The translations under genes were made by a program, and so were the position numbers. A model generated the notes under the pieces. It did not search any database, was not told where the DNA came from, and saw only the letters and a program-made list of their open reading frames with translations. A DNA stretch of 43,235 nt from an archaeon (lineage in GTDB: Archaea; Thermoproteota; Thermoprotei_A; Marsarchaeales; Marsarchaeaceae). The first letter of the stretch is position 1; each line of letters opens with the position of its first letter. Of this stretch, positions 20,051-26,724 are shown in pieces. Location: assembly GCA_902812505.1 (NCBI GenBank), contig CADDZQ010000006.1, forward strand, positions 1 to 43,235. Reading direction: 5' to 3'.

Positions 20051-20139
20051 AAGCAAACCGTTCATAGCGCGAACTTGACGAAGGTGACACTTAGAACAGT
20101 TACAGACCACTTAAGCCTTTGGAGGCCTATCTTCCCCCG

Positions 20140-20355
20140 GTGAAAAAATTGGTTGGTAGGGGCTCTGTACTAGGAGTCTTCGCTGTGCTGGGGTTCGTGG
20201 CGGGAATCGCATTCGGGTTCGCGATACCCTACGTTGTTCCTGCCTTGGCGTACTTGCCAAAAATAGTGACAGCCCAGTGGTTCCTCGCTGGCCTTATGGG
20301 GGCGCTCTTCGCCGTGGTAATAGTCCTCGCGTACATCGCTGCACACCACAACTAA
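20140..20355 (+). CDS. Small two-helix membrane protein
   Basis: A 71-residue protein starting MKKLVGRGSVLGVF, with two hydrophobic stretches (about 9-37 and 43-66) and a short C-terminal HHN. An upstream TTG at 20119 would add seven residues, but GTG 20140 is favoured because CACTTAAGCC (20108-20117) sits about 27 bases before it. No family is recognised. It is separate from the exchanger (about 90 bases downstream) and convergent with the large TrmB gene. Confidence 0.65.
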   Translation: MKKLVGRGSVLGVFAVLGFVAGIAFGFAIPYVVPALAYLPKIVTAQWFLAGLMGALFAVVIVLAYIAAHHN

Positions 20356-20420: not shown

Positions 20421-21797
20421 TTAGCGCTTCGGGTTTTCGTTGTTGTCTGTTCCAAGAGTAGTGGCTGGGGTGGTGGGGTTTTGGAACAAGTAGTCAAGCG
20501 GCTTTGTCTCGTGGTCCTCCTTCCTATACACCCTCTTTCTAGTTATCCAGAGGCGTTTTTGCTCGTCGTATATTGTCTGAAGCGTACTGGTATAGTAGCC
20601 GTACTTTTCGAAGATCGCCTCGCTGAGTACCCCCCAGGCGGTCATCAGGAACTCGGATTTTAACTCCTTGCTCTTCCTGTATGATACTGATGAGGCGTCT
20701 GTGACCTCGTAGAAGAGTGTTCTCAGTGGATCCTCACTACTATAGTTTATCTCGATTTTCTCCGAAACGGAGGCAAGGTCAACCATTAACCTTAGGGACT
20801 CCTCTAAATCGTCTTTGACGAGCTTTAATCCCTCTTCTTCGAGTAGTTGAAGGGCGTACACTCCAGCTTTCCTGATTAGCTCGTCCGCTTTCCTCTCCCC
20901 GAATTCGTCCACTAGTATTTTTCCGAACGCGTAGAGCACAGTGTTATAGTATACCGAGGCCGAAGAAGCCACTCTTGAGACGTCTTCGCCTGATTTGATA
21001 AGCGAGATAATGCTTCCGATATCTGGTAGCTCGACCCATAGGAAGTCGACAAAGGAGATAATGTTCTCAGCCACTCCTTTATCTTTAATATAGATGAGGG
21101 AGTAGTCGGATGGATCCTGTGAGAGTCGGGCTGAGGATATAATAATCGTGGTCTTCCTGTCGATAACTATTAGGTTGTCCTCTGGCTCCTTGTGGACCAC
21201 GTGGACCTCAGCGAAATCCTTGAATCCCTCAAGTTTAGAAATCTGGTCCGCGAGTAGGGGTGCGATGATTCTGTTTTTAACCTTCCTATCATAGGCGGCT
21301 CTTAAATCTTCACGCAACTCTCTGAGAAGTCTGAAGCAGGACCTATTGAGCACCATGACGACCTCCTGCTCCGCTTGGCTGAGCTCATCCCTCAACGCCT
21401 TCGTTCCTTTGCTTTTTTCCTTTATTGTCCAGAACTCTTTTCGCTCAACGCCGTCCTTATCCTTTATTTGGCTGAAGAGGTCGATAAGCCTGTTTAGCTG
21501 TTCTTTCATCGAGTCGAGTTCATCTTTCTTCTTATCTAAGAGGGGCTTAAGCGTGATTTCGGGTGACACAGCCCTACACATATACTTCTTTTCAGGTAGA
21601 AATTCAACGAACCCCTTTTTCTGTAGTTTCCTTACGTTAGCGTAAACCTTGGTTCTTGGAACATTGGCCTTCTGAGCCAGCTCAGACATGGTGCATGGCC
21701 CGTTTTCAACTAGAGCCCAGTATATTCTGGACTCGTGGTCGCTTAAACCGAACTCTGAAAGGTCCTTTTGCTTGGTTGAGTGTTGGGAGTCGGGCAT
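20421..21797 (-). CDS. Large TrmB-family transcription regulator
   Basis: A 458-residue protein. Residues about 15-80 form a winged helix typical of TrmB: LSDHESRIYWALVENGPCTMSELAQ, then recognition region NVPRTKVYANVRKLQKKGFVE. A coiled coil (about 85-112) and a TrmB-like phospholipase-D-fold ligand region (about 125-255; VVMVLNRSCFRLL, NLIVIDRKTTIII) follow. Residues about 275-405 are an extra, mostly helical domain I cannot assign. It is divergent from the division operon across a 160-base gap, so control of that operon is an inference from position. The upstream TATA-like TTTATAAGT (about 21856-21864) and GGTGA before the ATG suggest a leadered transcript. Confidence 0.82.
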   Translation of the reverse strand: MPDSQHSTKQKDLSEFGLSDHESRIYWALVENGPCTMSELAQKANVPRTKVYANVRKLQKKGFVEFLPEKKYMCRAVSPEITLKPLLDKKKDELDSMKEQLNRLIDLFSQIKDKDGVERKEFWTIKEKSKGTKALRDELSQAEQEVVMVLNRSCFRLLRELREDLRAAYDRKVKNRIIAPLLADQISKLEGFKDFAEVHVVHKEPEDNLIVIDRKTTIIISSARLSQDPSDYSLIYIKDKGVAENIISFVDFLWVELPDIGSIISLIKSGEDVSRVASSASVYYNTVLYAFGKILVDEFGERKADELIRKAGVYALQLLEEEGLKLVKDDLEESLRLMVDLASVSEKIEINYSSEDPLRTLFYEVTDASSVSYRKSKELKSEFLMTAWGVLSEAIFEKYGYYTSTLQTIYDEQKRLWITRKRVYRKEDHETKPLDYLFQNPTTPATTLGTDNNENPKR

Positions 21798-21919: not shown

Positions 21920-21931
21920 TCTTATATTTAT
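21920..21931 (+). promoter_or_regulatory. TATA-like box of the division operon
   Basis: CTTATATTTATA lies 27-38 bases before the TTG at 21958, the usual distance of an archaeal TATA box from a leaderless start. It drives the ESCRT-III/cdvA/cdvB/cdvC genes. The adjacent gap to the TrmB gene is where a regulator would bind; no clear palindrome was found. Confidence 0.6.
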
Positions 21932-21957
21932 AGACTTGAAGATACGAAGCGATAATT

Positions 21958-22596
21958 TTGAGTAGGGATTTCGCGTCAAACTGGGACAAAAAAGATTCAA
22001 CCTCCACCACCGACCGGCTAAAGGAAGCTATAAGGCCTCCCGGCCCACTTAAGCCCAGAATTGAGAGTGCTCAAAGATCGCTTCAAATGCAGGTTCAGAG
22101 GCTCGACCAGATCAATAGTAGACTTGTTGAGCGCCAACGGGTGATGTTTGAGAAGGTTGTAGACGCCATAAGACGACACGATCAAGCCCGCGCCACCATA
22201 TATGCGAACGAGGTCGCTGAGATAAGGAAGATGGCGAAACTCATAATGCAGAGCAGGCTCGCGTTAGAGTCAATCATCGTAAGGCTCGGCACGCTCGAAG
22301 ACCTCGGCGACGTGATCACAAACCTCGCTCCAGCCATCGGTGTTGTCTCCTCGATTAGACGTAGCATCGGTCAGGTGACGCCTGAGGCCGACAAGGAGAT
22401 GGGTGAAATATCCAACCTACTTAGCAGTATACTAGTGGAAGCGGGTCAGACTGGTAACTATACGGTGAGCTTCGACACAGCTAATGAAGATGCGCAGAAA
22501 ATAATGGAGGAGGCGGCCGCGCTCGCGGAGACTAGGCTGAAAGACCAGTTCCCAGACCTGCCAACCTCCGCTTCATCCCAGCAGACCAGGCAGTGA
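21958..22596 (+). CDS. ESCRT-III (CdvB-type) paralogue without winged helix
   Basis: A 212-residue Snf7-like polymer-forming protein of the archaeal division machinery. After a polar N-terminus (1-30), the basic helical core runs about 32-160: QVQRLDQINSRLVERQRVMFEKVV, HDQARATIYANEVAEIRKM and LEDLGDVITNLAPAIGVV are typical of CdvB helices 1-4. The C-terminal helix EDAQKIMEEAAALAETRL is followed by FPDLP (198-202), which resembles the proline-rich MIM2-type peptide that binds the MIT domain of Vps4/CdvC. It has no winged helix, unlike the second ESCRT-III gene downstream. The TTG start follows a TATA box by about 27 bases, with cdvA 28 bases downstream. Confidence 0.9.
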   Translation: MSRDFASNWDKKDSTSTTDRLKEAIRPPGPLKPRIESAQRSLQMQVQRLDQINSRLVERQRVMFEKVVDAIRRHDQARATIYANEVAEIRKMAKLIMQSRLALESIIVRLGTLEDLGDVITNLAPAIGVVSSIRRSIGQVTPEADKEMGEISNLLSSILVEAGQTGNYTVSFDTANEDAQKIMEEAAALAETRLKDQFPDLPTSASSQQTRQ

Positions 22597-22623
22597 ATAC
22601 ATAAATTAGGAGAGTAGACCCAG

Positions 22624-23331
22624 ATGTCTCCTGGTTCGGGTAGAAAACTATCCGACGACTCCATGTCGCCTTCGAGGCATCTGGGTAAGACTGTTAAGGA
22701 CGAGTACAACAGAGTTGTCGGATGGGTAGCGGGCTTCTTCAACTATCTTCCAGAGTCAGAGGGGAGCCAGTCTGGTAAGGCGGAGTTCTACTTTGTGGTT
22801 CAGACGACTGATGGCTTCCAAGAAATACCTTCGAGCAGAGTGCTCTCGGTAGAGGAGAACTATATCATAGTCAAGTCCGAGCTCAAACAGAGCCTCAAGG
22901 AGACTAAGGATAGAATTGAGTGGCTCTATGAGAGGATAAGGGCTCTTGAAGAGGCTAGTACGAAGGATAACTCGGCGTCAGACGCCCCAGTGCTCACCGC
23001 GGCGCAACTCCAGCACAAGGTCAGGTTTAACTCACTGGTGGAGAGCATCCACCCTTTACTCGAGGTGGCTCAGAGGCGGGTGGATAGGCTACTTTCCGAG
23101 ATCGAGCTAATTGAGCGTGCAATGGTTGATTTGAACATAGCTAGAACCATGAATGAAATCGGTGAGAAGGATTTTGAGTGCTGGTCGAAGAGGCTTAAGG
23201 ATGGGCTCAACTCTGCTCACCTAGAGTTGAGCGACCTGGATGACCTAGTCAAATCGCTTTCACGGATAGAGAGGGAGTACAGGGATGTCTTCCGCGTTGA
23301 GATAGTGAGTGAGACAGATAGAAGGGAGTGA
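22624..23331 (+). CDS. cdvA: CdvA, archaeal cell-division membrane-recruitment protein
   Basis: A 235-residue protein with the CdvA layout: a PRC-barrel-like N-terminal domain (about 25-85; VVGWVAGFFNYLPE, EFYFVVQTTDGFQEIPSSRV), then long coiled coil (about 86-112 and 130-220). CdvA coats the membrane at midcell and recruits the winged-helix CdvB. In Sulfolobus, recruitment uses a short C-terminal peptide that adds a strand to CdvB's winged helix; here the last residues contain FRVEIVSE, a plausible strand of this kind. The gene lies between two ESCRT-III genes and overlaps cdvB by four bases (GTGA), so they should be translated together. CATAAATTAGG (22600-22610) may be an internal promoter. 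Confidence 0.85.
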   Translation: MSPGSGRKLSDDSMSPSRHLGKTVKDEYNRVVGWVAGFFNYLPESEGSQSGKAEFYFVVQTTDGFQEIPSSRVLSVEENYIIVKSELKQSLKETKDRIEWLYERIRALEEASTKDNSASDAPVLTAAQLQHKVRFNSLVESIHPLLEVAQRRVDRLLSEIELIERAMVDLNIARTMNEIGEKDFECWSKRLKDGLNSAHLELSDLDDLVKSLSRIEREYRDVFRVEIVSETDRRE

Positions 23332-24248
23332 GCTCAGCCGTGGGAACCCTGTATTTTGACTCTTTCCTCAAAAAGAAGAAAGACTTTAAGGATATTCTCG
23401 ACGAGGTTCTCAGGGTTCTTAACGAGCAGCAGGTTCAAATAAGGATGCGTATAGTGAGCCTTCAGCGTAGGGAGAATGAGCTTCTTAGAATGTGTGTGAT
23501 GCTTATACGTCGAAAGGATAGGGCTCGGGCTAGGATATATGCATATGAGACCGTTGAGATACACAGGGTTCTAAGTGTGCTCCAGAAGAGTGAGCTCATA
23601 GTTGAGGCCCTCAGGCTAAGGGTTGGGACAGCAAAGGAGCTCGGTGACGCCGTGGGCACGCTTAGACCGCTAGCGGATGCGCTTAGCAGGGTTAGAGCCC
23701 AACTCCAGGGCTTTGTCCCAGAGGTGGCTAAAAGCATGCAGCAGACAGCCGAGGCTCTAAACGAGGTGCTCAGCGTGAGTGTACCCGAGACAAGCATAGG
23801 CGACTTCTCCTCGCCGCTCAACACTGAAAGTGTGGAGTCCATACTGAGGGATGCCGAGGAGTTGGCGAGTAGGAAGCTTAGAGAAGAGTTAGAGAAGGTG
23901 GAGGAGGCAGACCTTAAACCCATAATCGAGTACATAAGGAGCAACGGTATCGAATCCATACAGTCTGTGGTGGACAACCTCGTCGACACGTTCTCGGTGG
24001 AGGGCTTAGAGGGTGTCGTAGAAGAAAATGTGAGTTCCTCTAAGGATGGTGGTCTACTATATGTTAGGGTTAACGAAACAGACTCCGAGATACCTAGACG
24101 CGTGTATGATTATATTAGGAGTAAGAATGGGGTGCTCGAGTTATCATCATGCTGTAAGGATCTCGGCATCAGTCGTGAATCCGTCATCACAGCTCTGCGA
24201 ACGCTTGAGTCGCAGGGCAAGATCAAACTCGACCATCAGCCAGCGTGA
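23328..24248 (+). CDS. cdvB: CdvB, ESCRT-III with C-terminal winged helix
   Basis: A 306-residue ESCRT-III protein. The basic core is at about 15-150 (QQVQIRMRIVSLQRRENELLRMCVML, KDRARARIYAYETVEIHRVL, AKELGDAVGTLRPLADALSRV), followed by an acidic linker (about 165-250). A winged helix, about 253-303 (RRVYDYIRSKNGVLELSSCCKDLGI, RESVITALRTLESQGKIKLD), should bind the CdvA tail. The linker contains the helix ESILRDAEELASRKLREEL, homologous to the one before FPDLP in the first ESCRT-III protein, but no proline-rich Vps4-binding core is evident here. It starts with GTG in the four-base overlap with cdvA and ends 17 bases before cdvC. Confidence 0.88.
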   Translation: MSSAVGTLYFDSFLKKKKDFKDILDEVLRVLNEQQVQIRMRIVSLQRRENELLRMCVMLIRRKDRARARIYAYETVEIHRVLSVLQKSELIVEALRLRVGTAKELGDAVGTLRPLADALSRVRAQLQGFVPEVAKSMQQTAEALNEVLSVSVPETSIGDFSSPLNTESVESILRDAEELASRKLREELEKVEEADLKPIIEYIRSNGIESIQSVVDNLVDTFSVEGLEGVVEENVSSSKDGGLLYVRVNETDSEIPRRVYDYIRSKNGVLELSSCCKDLGISRESVITALRTLESQGKIKLDHQPA

Positions 24249-24265
24249 ATCTTTGGTGAAAACCA

Positions 24266-25426
24266 TTGGCTTTGGCCGCCTCTGAACTTGAAGGCTTAGC
24301 TAAACGTTATGCTAGTGAAGCGGTGGCAGCGGATAGGCAGGGTATGCGGGGTAAAGCCATCACTAGCTACCAGCAGGCAATCGATGTCCTCAACAAGTTG
24401 GTCACACTCTACCCTGGCTATGAATTAAATGGGATATACATTCAGCGTATAAAGGCGTACCAAGAGAGGATAAGGCTTCTGAAGGGTGAGGTCTACGAGG
24501 ATGATGGTAGTGGGAGCAACCTTTTGCCAAGGAATCAGCAAAGCCCTAGTCAATCCCAGAAGAGCTCGTATGATGACCTGGTCATAAAGGAGAAGCCAAA
24601 TGTTAAATGGGAAGATGTGATAGGTTTAGAGGATGCTAAGAAGGCGATCATGGAGTCTATTGTGTACCCAACCAAGCGCCCAGATCTTTTCCCCCTCGGA
24701 TGGCCGAGGGGTATACTCATGTTCGGCCCCCCTGGTTGTGGTAAGACGCTTCTTGCTGCGGCAGCCGCCTCTGAGATTGAGGCCACGTTTATCAGTGTTG
24801 ACGCGGCTTCAATAATGTCGAGGTGGCTTGGGGAGGCTGAGAAGAATGTTGCGAGGATATTCGCTCAGGCGCGCTCAATCAAGGGTCCTGTTATAATCTT
24901 CATGGATGAGCTCGATGCGCTTCTTGGTATACGCTCAAACGAGGTGGGGGGTGAGGTTAGGGCTAGGAATCAGTTGCTTCAAGAGATGGATGGTTTAGCC
25001 GATAAGGGTAAGACGAACATGGTGTACGTTATTGGCGCAACAAACAAGCCGTGGGTTCTGGATGCACCCTTCGTGAGGAGGTTCCAGAAGCGTATAATGG
25101 TTAACCTCCCAGACTATGATGCTAGGATAAGGATATTCGAGCTTTACACAAAGAACCTCAGGCTTGCCGAAGACGTAGACCTCAAAGAGTTGGCTAGGTG
25201 GACAGAGAACTATAGCCCAAGCGATATCAGGGATGTTTGCCAGAGCGCCCACCTAATGGTGGTGCGAGAACTCTTTGAATCAGATCAGGCCAATAAGCCC
25301 GGTAGCATGCCACGCAGGATAACGATGGACGACTTCAAAAAGGTGTTAGAAAATAGGAAGCCAAGTGTGGCTCCGGACCTACTTGCATCCTATAAGACGT
25401 GGTACGACTACTATAAGGCGTTGTGA
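24266..25426 (+). CDS. cdvC: CdvC, Vps4-type AAA ATPase
   Basis: A 386-residue AAA ATPase that disassembles or remodels ESCRT-III filaments. It has an N-terminal MIT domain (about 1-75; LEGLAKRYASEAVAADRQG, AITSYQQAIDVLNKLV), a flexible linker with GSGSN and QSPSQSQKSS, then the catalytic module. Walker A is GPPGCGKT (154-161), the pore loop is SRWLGEAEKN with W187, Walker B is IIFMDELD (D214, E215). The second region of homology is GATNKPWVLDAPFVRRFQKRI with N260 as sensor 1 and R271/R272 as arginine fingers. The Vps4 C-terminal helix is present (YKTWYDYYKAL). All residues needed for ATP hydrolysis are present. A TTG start follows cdvB by 17 bases. Confidence 0.93.
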   Translation: MALAASELEGLAKRYASEAVAADRQGMRGKAITSYQQAIDVLNKLVTLYPGYELNGIYIQRIKAYQERIRLLKGEVYEDDGSGSNLLPRNQQSPSQSQKSSYDDLVIKEKPNVKWEDVIGLEDAKKAIMESIVYPTKRPDLFPLGWPRGILMFGPPGCGKTLLAAAAASEIEATFISVDAASIMSRWLGEAEKNVARIFAQARSIKGPVIIFMDELDALLGIRSNEVGGEVRARNQLLQEMDGLADKGKTNMVYVIGATNKPWVLDAPFVRRFQKRIMVNLPDYDARIRIFELYTKNLRLAEDVDLKELARWTENYSPSDIRDVCQSAHLMVVRELFESDQANKPGSMPRRITMDDFKKVLENRKPSVAPDLLASYKTWYDYYKAL

Positions 25427-25715: not shown

Positions 25716-26078
25716 ATGTCCCAGAAATACATACCCTCGATCAATTATGGGAGCCGCTCTAAGACGCTCAGTAGGAGGATGGATTTGCTCAAGTATGTTG
25801 GAAGGGACATTACACTTCACTATAAGGATGGTAGGACGGATCGGCTCAAGGTTTATAGTTATGAGGGCCCATTCCTCCTACTTGTCGCCCCGAAATCCTC
25901 GCTTGGGCACATTGGTATACAGATCGATAAGTGGGTGATTAGGGAGGAGAAGGGTGAGCTTCACGCTTATCCTAACGGTCATGTCCCAGATTTGGTGCTT
26001 AATCCTCAGACCTCCCCCCGATCTCCTTCGGCTTCCTCTGCCGCTTCAGTTTCTCCCTCTCCTCAACAAATGCACTGA
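25716..26078 (+). CDS. Small LSm-like hypothetical protein
   Basis: A 120-residue protein. Residues about 20-75 (RRMDLLKYVGRDITLHYKDG, RLKVYSYEGPFLLLVAP) have the rough rhythm of an LSm/Sm-like barrel: short helix, then strands around D/G-containing loops. The identity is weak and other small beta folds are possible. The C-terminal 25 residues are Ser/Pro-rich (SPRSPSASSAASVSPS) and are encoded across the 3' end of the convergent TrmB gene (80-base overlap). The ATG has TTTTAAATTT (25683-25692) about 27 bases upstream. Its role next to the division operon is unknown. Confidence 0.6.
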   Translation: MSQKYIPSINYGSRSKTLSRRMDLLKYVGRDITLHYKDGRTDRLKVYSYEGPFLLLVAPKSSLGHIGIQIDKWVIREEKGELHAYPNGHVPDLVLNPQTSPRSPSASSAASVSPSPQQMH

Positions 26079-26673
26079 GACGGCGTGCAAGGCTTTTCGA
26101 GTAGGCTAGCACACCAAGTAGCGGGAAATCAGATTTATCCGGAAACCAAAAGACTGCGTCCTCTAGTATTATTAGGTTGTGCGGTTTATCTGTTACAAGG
26201 ACCTTCCTGTTCTTTGGTAGTCCAAGTCTGCGTAGCCAGGATGGGGTGAGCACAAGTACGCAGTTACCAGTGTTAGAGACGAGTTGAGACGCTTTGCCAG
26301 TAACCTGCTTTTCACCGTAGTAGACGATGGCGCTAATTGCTTCGCTCAACTCAACACCACCCGACCCAAGCTCCTCCAGTAAATTCAGCTTCTCCTCCAC
26401 TTTTTCAGAGAGCTCTCTGCGGATGCGTGGCAGTATAGAGCTCATTGGTAAAGGCTTAAAAAGCCTCGGCCTTCCCTGAGTGCTCTCAACCCAACCCTTC
26501 TCCTGAAGAGATTTTAGGACGGTGTATATCCAGGAGCGCGGTACCCCCGAACGCTCGGCTAACTCGCTAGAAGTGAGTGCGCCATGTGTATAAAGTGAAA
26601 TGCACACCTGCGCCTCATACCTACTTAAACCAAGCTCCATTAATACCCCAAGAGATGATGTGACTCTGCTCAT
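25999..26673 (-). CDS. Second TrmB-family transcription regulator
   Basis: A 224-residue protein when started at ATG 26673. The N-terminal winged helix is clear: LGLSRYEAQVCISLYTHGALTSSELAERSGVPRSWIYTVLKSLQEKGWVE. A helical linker (PRIRRELSEKVEEKLNLLEEL) and a small phospholipase-D-like ligand region follow (AIVYYGEKQVTGKASQL, CVLVLTPSWLRRLG, NLIILEDAVFWFPD). It is shorter than classic TrmB. The longer frame to 26709 is rejected because the shared AT box at 26694-26706 would then be inside it. The gene is divergent from the surface-protein gene and convergent with the LSm-like gene. Confidence 0.82.
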   Translation of the reverse strand: MSRVTSSLGVLMELGLSRYEAQVCISLYTHGALTSSELAERSGVPRSWIYTVLKSLQEKGWVESTQGRPRLFKPLPMSSILPRIRRELSEKVEEKLNLLEELGSGGVELSEAISAIVYYGEKQVTGKASQLVSNTGNCVLVLTPSWLRRLGLPKNRKVLVTDKPHNLIILEDAVFWFPDKSDFPLLGVLAYSKSLARRLSAFVEEREKLKRQRKPKEIGGRSED

Positions 26674-26693
26674 ACACACATAAATATCGATCG

Positions 26694-26706
26694 GACTTAA
26701 ATATAA
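26694..26706. promoter_or_regulatory. Shared bidirectional TATA-like box
   Basis: ACTTAAATATAAC lies about 26 bases from both ATG 26673 (minus) and ATG 26725 (plus). It is the only strong AT box in the 51-base gap, so the TrmB regulator and the surface protein may be transcribed from opposite sides of one element, the same layout as at 11427-11437. Confidence 0.6.
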
Positions 26707-26724
26707 CAATTATTTGTTGGTATT

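Follow-up and report, generated by a model that had tools for sequence, protein, structure and literature searches.

The archaeal Cdv (cell division) system is the closest model of how eukaryotic ESCRT division arose, and accounts of its evolution have so far drawn on Sulfolobus and a handful of ammonia oxidizers, the loci of which had looked unrelated. In Sulfolobus, the ESCRT-III proteins CdvB1 and CdvB2 act in constriction and abscission (PMC11796394, PMC12818579). In Thaumarchaea, a coiled-coil protein, arCOG08707, is encoded upstream of cdvC and was described as similar to no known protein (PMC10936438), and Frohn et al. (PMC8970359) divided the interaction types of the system into Cren and Thaum. 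Here we examine a cdv operon in a 43,235-nucleotide stretch of DNA (contig CADDZQ010000006.1; hereafter the window) from a hot-spring archaeon of Marsarchaeota group 2, the closest named relative of which is ECH_B_1 (CdvC 99% identical). The operon opens with an additional ESCRT-III gene, which we call the leader, followed by cdvA, cdvB and cdvC. Because the same order, with mostly orthologous leaders, is shared by 18 family codes of the Genome Taxonomy Database (GTDB) across the CdvC tree, this layout (leader-A-B-C) appears to be ancestral to most archaea of the TACK superphylum (Thaumarchaeota, Aigarchaeota, Crenarchaeota and Korarchaeota), and the layouts of Sulfolobus and Nitrososphaerales would be derived. 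We put the probability of this sequence-based reading at roughly 0.78.

The operon consists of four open reading frames on the plus strand, preceded by a putative promoter element:

21923..21932, plus strand: TATA-like box TATATTTATA, ~25 bases upstream of the leader TTG; probable operon promoter
21958..22596, plus strand: leader gene; ESCRT-III of the CdvB1/B2 type, 212 amino acids, TTG start, no winged helix
22624..23331, plus strand: cdvA; 235 amino acids, PRC-type beta barrel (residues ~20-83) and coiled coil
23328..24248, plus strand: cdvB; 306 amino acids, ESCRT-III core and C-terminal winged helix, no proline MIM2 (MIT-interacting motif 2)
24081..24218, plus strand: winged-helix domain of CdvB (residues 252-297), from the alignment to other CdvB and the helices of the AlphaFold2 model
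24266..25426, plus strand: cdvC/Vps4; 386 amino acids, MIT, AAA and Vps4_C domains

An initial annotation of this DNA had placed an ESCRT-III gene ahead of cdvA in a compact operon, and both parts of that description hold. The intergenic distances are 27, -4 and 17 bases, the latter two as first reported and the first one base shorter than the 28 given then. TATA-like boxes, which like the MIM2 motifs were called by simple patterns, lie 25-30 bases 5' of the aligned non-ATG leader start in four Marsarchaeal genera, suggesting that a single promoter ahead of the leader drives a polycistronic and probably leaderless mRNA. The four-gene order is not a chance arrangement, since it is present in every Marsarchaeal genome with an intact locus as well as in many other families. 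Two more ESCRT-III paralogues are dispersed elsewhere in the genome, one of them a Marsarchaeal duplicate of the leader.

The identification of the leader as ESCRT-III is confirmed by profile, pairwise and tree evidence. Its best NCBIfam match is NF041005 (CdvB1/B2; E 4.8e-59), at 199 bits under the equivalog cut-off of 350, and phmmer pairs it with Sulfolobus CdvB2 (9s97) at E 8.8e-45. It has the features that define the CdvB1/B2 class (PMC8970359), namely a Snf7 core and a MIM2 with no winged helix. In the phylogeny that had been proposed as a check, it groups with Sulfolobus CdvB1/B2, though not as a one-to-one orthologue (Shimodaira-Hasegawa-like approximate likelihood-ratio test, SH-aLRT, 83), and stands apart from CdvB. 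CdvA reaches 34.8 bits against Pfam PF18822 (cut-off 30) and combines the PRC barrel and coiled coil that characterize CdvA of the TACK Cdv system; its AlphaFold2 model (predicted local distance difference test, pLDDT, 82) is matched by Foldseek to S. islandicus CdvA 9s9i at E 1.1e-8, with a template-modelling (TM) score of 0.79 on the target. We discounted matches of CdvA to VirD1 and GvpG, and of the leader to leucine-zipper families, as background from coiled coils. The third protein matches NCBIfam NF041008 (E 6.7e-25) and, by phmmer, CdvB 9s9j (E 5.1e-16), while a Foldseek comparison of its AlphaFold model to 9s9j and 9s99 returned CdvB2 at E 3.9e-7 and CdvB at E 1.6e-5. As in the CdvB class of PMC8970359, which combines a Snf7 core, a MIM2 and a broken winged helix, it has an ESCRT-III core and, judged by alignment and model, a C-terminal winged helix, the latter matching the Sulfolobus ESCRT-III winged helix 2xvc weakly (E 0.18). 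The MIM2 that also belongs to this class was not found, and the protein is CdvB-like by descent and winged helix. CdvC matches NCBIfam NF041006 at E 1.6e-156 and carries the expected Pfam MIT, AAA and Vps4_C domains, its MIT scoring 27.6 bits, slightly below the cut-off of 30.

The layout was followed across ~100 genomes by annotating the surroundings of cdvC with our own profiles; the TACK sample was one even draw of genomes, grouped by GTDB family codes. All 13 of the nearest named loci (three from Marsarchaeota and ten from Bathyarchaeota) have the leader-A-B-C order, as does one locus labelled Methanomethylicia. Complete same-strand copies occur in 18 family codes of TACK archaea, Bathyarchaeia among them (f1, f10, f16, f19, f20, f24, f25, f28, f36, f37, f38, f40, f41, f42, f49, f50, f52, f55), and the loci of f26 and f57 end at contig edges yet fit the same order. 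On the Sulfolobales side, families have A-B-C, B-C with cdvA elsewhere or, in f59 and f60, A-B-C with an inverted leader adjoining cdvA. Many Nitrososphaeria have leader-B-C without cdvA. The initial annotation would have been undone by a four-gene order already widely described: the order is indeed widespread in genomes, but we found no text in the literature that describes it, although a depiction in Figure 3B of PMC10936438 or in supplements is possible. Its suggestion that the set is ancestral gains support from the 18 codes spread over the CdvC tree and from their mostly orthologous leaders.

Several variants of the layout were seen. In f24, f40, f42 and f50 (loci L200, L198, L140 and L202), an extra CdvB1/B2-type gene after cdvC produces a five-gene arrangement, and in f42 another ESCRT-III/CdvA pair follows 1.7 kb downstream. 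No CdvC was matched at E 1e-80 in four small, incomplete f57 genomes (G305-G308) that belong to the same taxonomic order as the Marsarchaeota, reflecting either real loss or missing contigs; in one of them, G307, a leader-cdvA pair lies at the edge of a contig.

The history of the locus was assessed from several quick trees of ESCRT-III, leader and CdvC sequences. The ESCRT-III tree places the leaders together with Sulfolobus CdvB1/B2, the inverted copies of f59 and f60 and the main-locus ESCRT-III of f11, f43 and f47 in the one group supported at SH-aLRT 83, separate from most CdvB. Leaders of the different families are mostly orthologous and lineage-congruent, the four-gene layout is scattered over the CdvC tree as an ancestral state predicts, and nearly every family examined has a winged helix in its CdvB, early Nitrososphaerales included. 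Several points weigh against an ancestral layout. The deep ESCRT-III forks are weak, the leader group has its SH-aLRT of 83 but no bootstrap, the CdvB branches are long, and the f38 CdvB falls beside its own leader. The sample was a single draw, co-transcription and protein contacts are predictions, and horizontal transfer may account for part of the spread of the layout, as the Marsarchaeal gene trees suggest. With deep forks this weak, the ancestral layout is something we infer.

Placing Marsarchaeota with Sulfolobales-side genes is rejected by the leader tree (approximately unbiased, AU, test, p 3e-4), as is placing them with f57, a member of their own order (p 3e-6), and the concatenated leader+A+C tree likewise rejects the Sulfolobales side (p 4e-5). 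CdvC alone gives an AU p of 0.077 and CdvA alone 0.08, CdvA being too divergent to place Marsarchaeota. By RpoA1, a single species marker, Marsarchaeota group with both f57 and the Sulfolobales side, the latter being also their place by GTDB class. A TrmB-family neighbour gene in common agrees with a link of Marsarchaeota to f12 and Nitrososphaeria. The balance of these gene trees leans towards a transfer of the whole locus into Marsarchaeota. Since the leader and leader+A+C trees make transfer plausible, the four-gene layout could even be a derived fusion peculiar to one lineage, in which Marsarchaeota or one of their relatives gained a CdvB1/B2 gene ahead of an ancestral cdvABC operon and the layout then spread horizontally. 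Such an origin seems unlikely to us, however, as transfer into Marsarchaeota leaves the wide spread unexplained: the layout is dispersed over the CdvC tree in 18 family codes, its leaders are mostly lineage-congruent, and inverted-leader intermediates exist on the Sulfolobales side.

If leader-A-B-C is ancestral, the textbook layouts would have arisen along two paths. In the Sulfolobales lineage, the leader would have been inverted, as in f59 and f60, and then exported from the locus and duplicated to give CdvB1 and CdvB2. In the leader tree, the sister group of Sulfolobus CdvB1/B2 is formed by the inverted copies from f59 and f60 (100/94). In Nitrososphaerales, cdvA would have left the locus and cdvB would have decayed to a short coiled-coil protein. 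A decay series for the gene between leader and cdvC can be laid out within this one GTDB order, from proteins of 247-299 amino acids that clearly match ESCRT-III (down to 1e-71), via proteins of 136-235 amino acids with matches of ~1e-16 to 1e-5, to proteins of 153-192 amino acids that in most f11 genomes have no detectable ESCRT-III match. Early members of the order retain the winged helix, visibly eroded in some. The main-locus ESCRT-III of f11, for its part, scores 99.5% with the leader profile vs 73% with that of CdvB. We take the f11 genomes to be those of ammonia oxidizers, and by position and size the short f11 protein is probably arCOG08707.

Whether this short protein is a remnant of CdvB or an unrelated coiled-coil newcomer beside cdvC was addressed by profile comparison. 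Comparing the f11 protein directly with CdvB yields a probability of just 1-3%, which speaks for a newcomer, as does the description of arCOG08707 as unlike any known protein; the bridge to CdvB depends on intermediates, the proteins at the same position in f61, f43 and f47. These intermediates, however, match both ends, the f11 protein at 96% (E 4.9e-9) and CdvB at 96% (E 1.4e-9). Among the controls, CdvA and MIT gave values near zero, 0 of 60 column shuffles reached the observed value and reversed profiles stayed at or below ~4%. Since the profile chains and the column-shuffle controls support it, descent from CdvB is the likely origin of the short coiled-coil protein before cdvC (loci L143, L146-L148, L155, L319 and L331), and we consider a newcomer improbable.

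The initial annotation had also raised an alternative division set, and this suggestion falls away: the genes are an ordinary CdvB1/B2-type plus CdvB set and the only Cdv set found, with FtsZ not detected in ten Marsarchaeales genomes and no second cdvC found. The apparent absence of FtsZ is in line with a division role for the Cdv set of these uncultivated archaea, lending it indirect support. The leader might still belong to a second set or be a vesicle-forming ESCRT-III merely parked by the operon, given that Sulfolobus CdvB1/B2 homologues were found in secreted vesicles (PMC3684127). We regard this as very improbable against a leader that stays coupled to cdvA-cdvB-cdvC over deep divergence and belongs with proteins active in Sulfolobus division, in genomes where neither a second cdvC nor FtsZ was detected.

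Two short motifs suggest how the products of the operon could interact:

22549..22563, plus strand: MIM2-like FPDLP in the leader, from a pattern scan; putative CdvC docking site
23287..23310, plus strand: VFRVEIVS at the C-terminus of CdvA; candidate partner strand (E3B/BWI-like) of the CdvB winged helix, function predicted

FPDLP, a MIM2 of the CdvB1/B2 type, ends all Marsarchaeal leaders. The pattern [FLIVM]P.[LIPVMA]P is absent from 6 of 6 Marsarchaeal CdvB and present in CdvB of most other families, although so crude a pattern may overlook a divergent motif in CdvB. In Marsarchaeal CdvA, VFRVEIVS takes the place of PIPVRV, VVVYVKE and the like in other CdvA C-termini. As several Bathyarchaeal CdvA hold LPEPP and a terminal strand at once, both interaction types of Frohn et al. 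occur side by side, and the Cren/Thaum division looks like the two ends of a gradient. Functions of all proteins of the locus are predicted, and the order of action below is taken from Sulfolobus data (PMC12818579, PMC11796394). Filaments of CdvA, built through its PRC barrel and coiled coil, would mark the division site; the C-terminal strand of CdvA would hold CdvB through the CdvB winged helix; CdvB would recruit the leader protein, which would form the constricting polymer; and CdvC would take out subunits via MIM2. Because a recognizable MIM2 is present in the leader and not in CdvB, CdvC probably acts mainly on the leader in Marsarchaeota, which would thus offer a natural case of a CdvB seemingly deprived of its CdvC docking motif.

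Three genes flanking the operon are conserved to different extents:

20119..20355, plus strand: 78-amino-acid protein, apparently with two transmembrane helices and in no Pfam family; conserved neighbour of cdv
20421..21797, minus strand: TrmB-family regulator, 458 amino acids, divergent from the operon across a 160-bp gap (Pfam TrmB 1.1e-20); candidate regulator
25716..26078, plus strand: 120-amino-acid protein of no known family, downstream of cdvC in all Marsarchaeal loci examined

Full-length TrmB homologues divergent from the cdv locus were found in Marsarchaeota (f1), f12, f11 and f47 and in Nitrososphaeria loci L014, L019, L021 and L023. A search of the gap between regulator and leader for an operator returned a perfect inverted repeat in one genus (L002), which was dropped as it is not shared by the other genera, and none of the papers searched names TrmB alongside CdvB. 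In all 23 genomes checked from f1, f10, f12, f25, f28, f37 and f41 (Marsarchaeal, Bathyarchaeal and f12), the 78-amino-acid protein adjoins the cdv locus. Several Nitrososphaeria have it at a distance from the locus, and one f19 genome, G213, encodes a copy 89 bases away from a further ESCRT-III gene. The TrmB-family gene is a probable regulator and the two-helix protein a probable membrane partner of the division operon, and they would be two new candidate division genes. The 120-amino-acid protein is 56-63% identical over 86 amino acids in three other genera, without a Pfam or NCBIfam match, and in L002 its gene begins ~20-40 bases after cdvC. A second, shorter TrmB-family gene (236 amino acids; 25999-26709, minus strand) lies downstream of the operon in the window and in ECH_B_1, and not at this place in other Marsarchaeal genera.

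Taken together, most TACK cdv loci may come from one extended locus composed of the two-helix membrane protein and/or the TrmB-family regulator, leader, cdvA, cdvB and cdvC. In this fuller scenario, which we hold to be somewhat better than an even bet as a whole, the main-locus 'cdvB' of ammonia oxidizers is the leader, their orphan coiled-coil protein is a decayed CdvB whose winged helix went when CdvA lost its partner strand, and the TrmB-family gene and membrane protein are unrecognised division parts. If true, the Sulfolobus and ammonia-oxidizer loci share a four-gene ancestor, CdvB1/B2 and CdvB are both ancient, the winged-helix-less thaumarchaeal CdvBs are explained and the orphan protein gains an origin.

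Set beside the described systems, the Marsarchaeal locus has the protein families, the A-B-C order and a spacing similarly close to those of Sulfolobus cdvA-cdvB-cdvC (PMC5840170), where, however, the CdvB1/B2 genes lie elsewhere (cdvB1, cdvB2 and cdvB3 being dispersed) and cdvA is transcribed as a unit of its own; the Marsarchaeal operon opens with a CdvB1/B2-type gene and has cdvA in second place. Bathyarchaeial loci (L004-L013) are alike in their identical four-gene order and in the two-helix membrane protein upstream, but have no adjoining TrmB-family gene, and their CdvB, unlike that of Marsarchaeota, keeps LPEPP (MIM2-like). The thaumarchaeal main locus (short cdvB, arCOG08707, cdvC; PMC10936438, PMC5840170) begins with an ESCRT-III leader and ends with cdvC, as here, and has a divergent TrmB-family gene upstream, as in Marsarchaeota; it differs in that cdvA is located elsewhere and the CdvB slot is filled by a short protein, which we read as a decayed CdvB without its winged helix.

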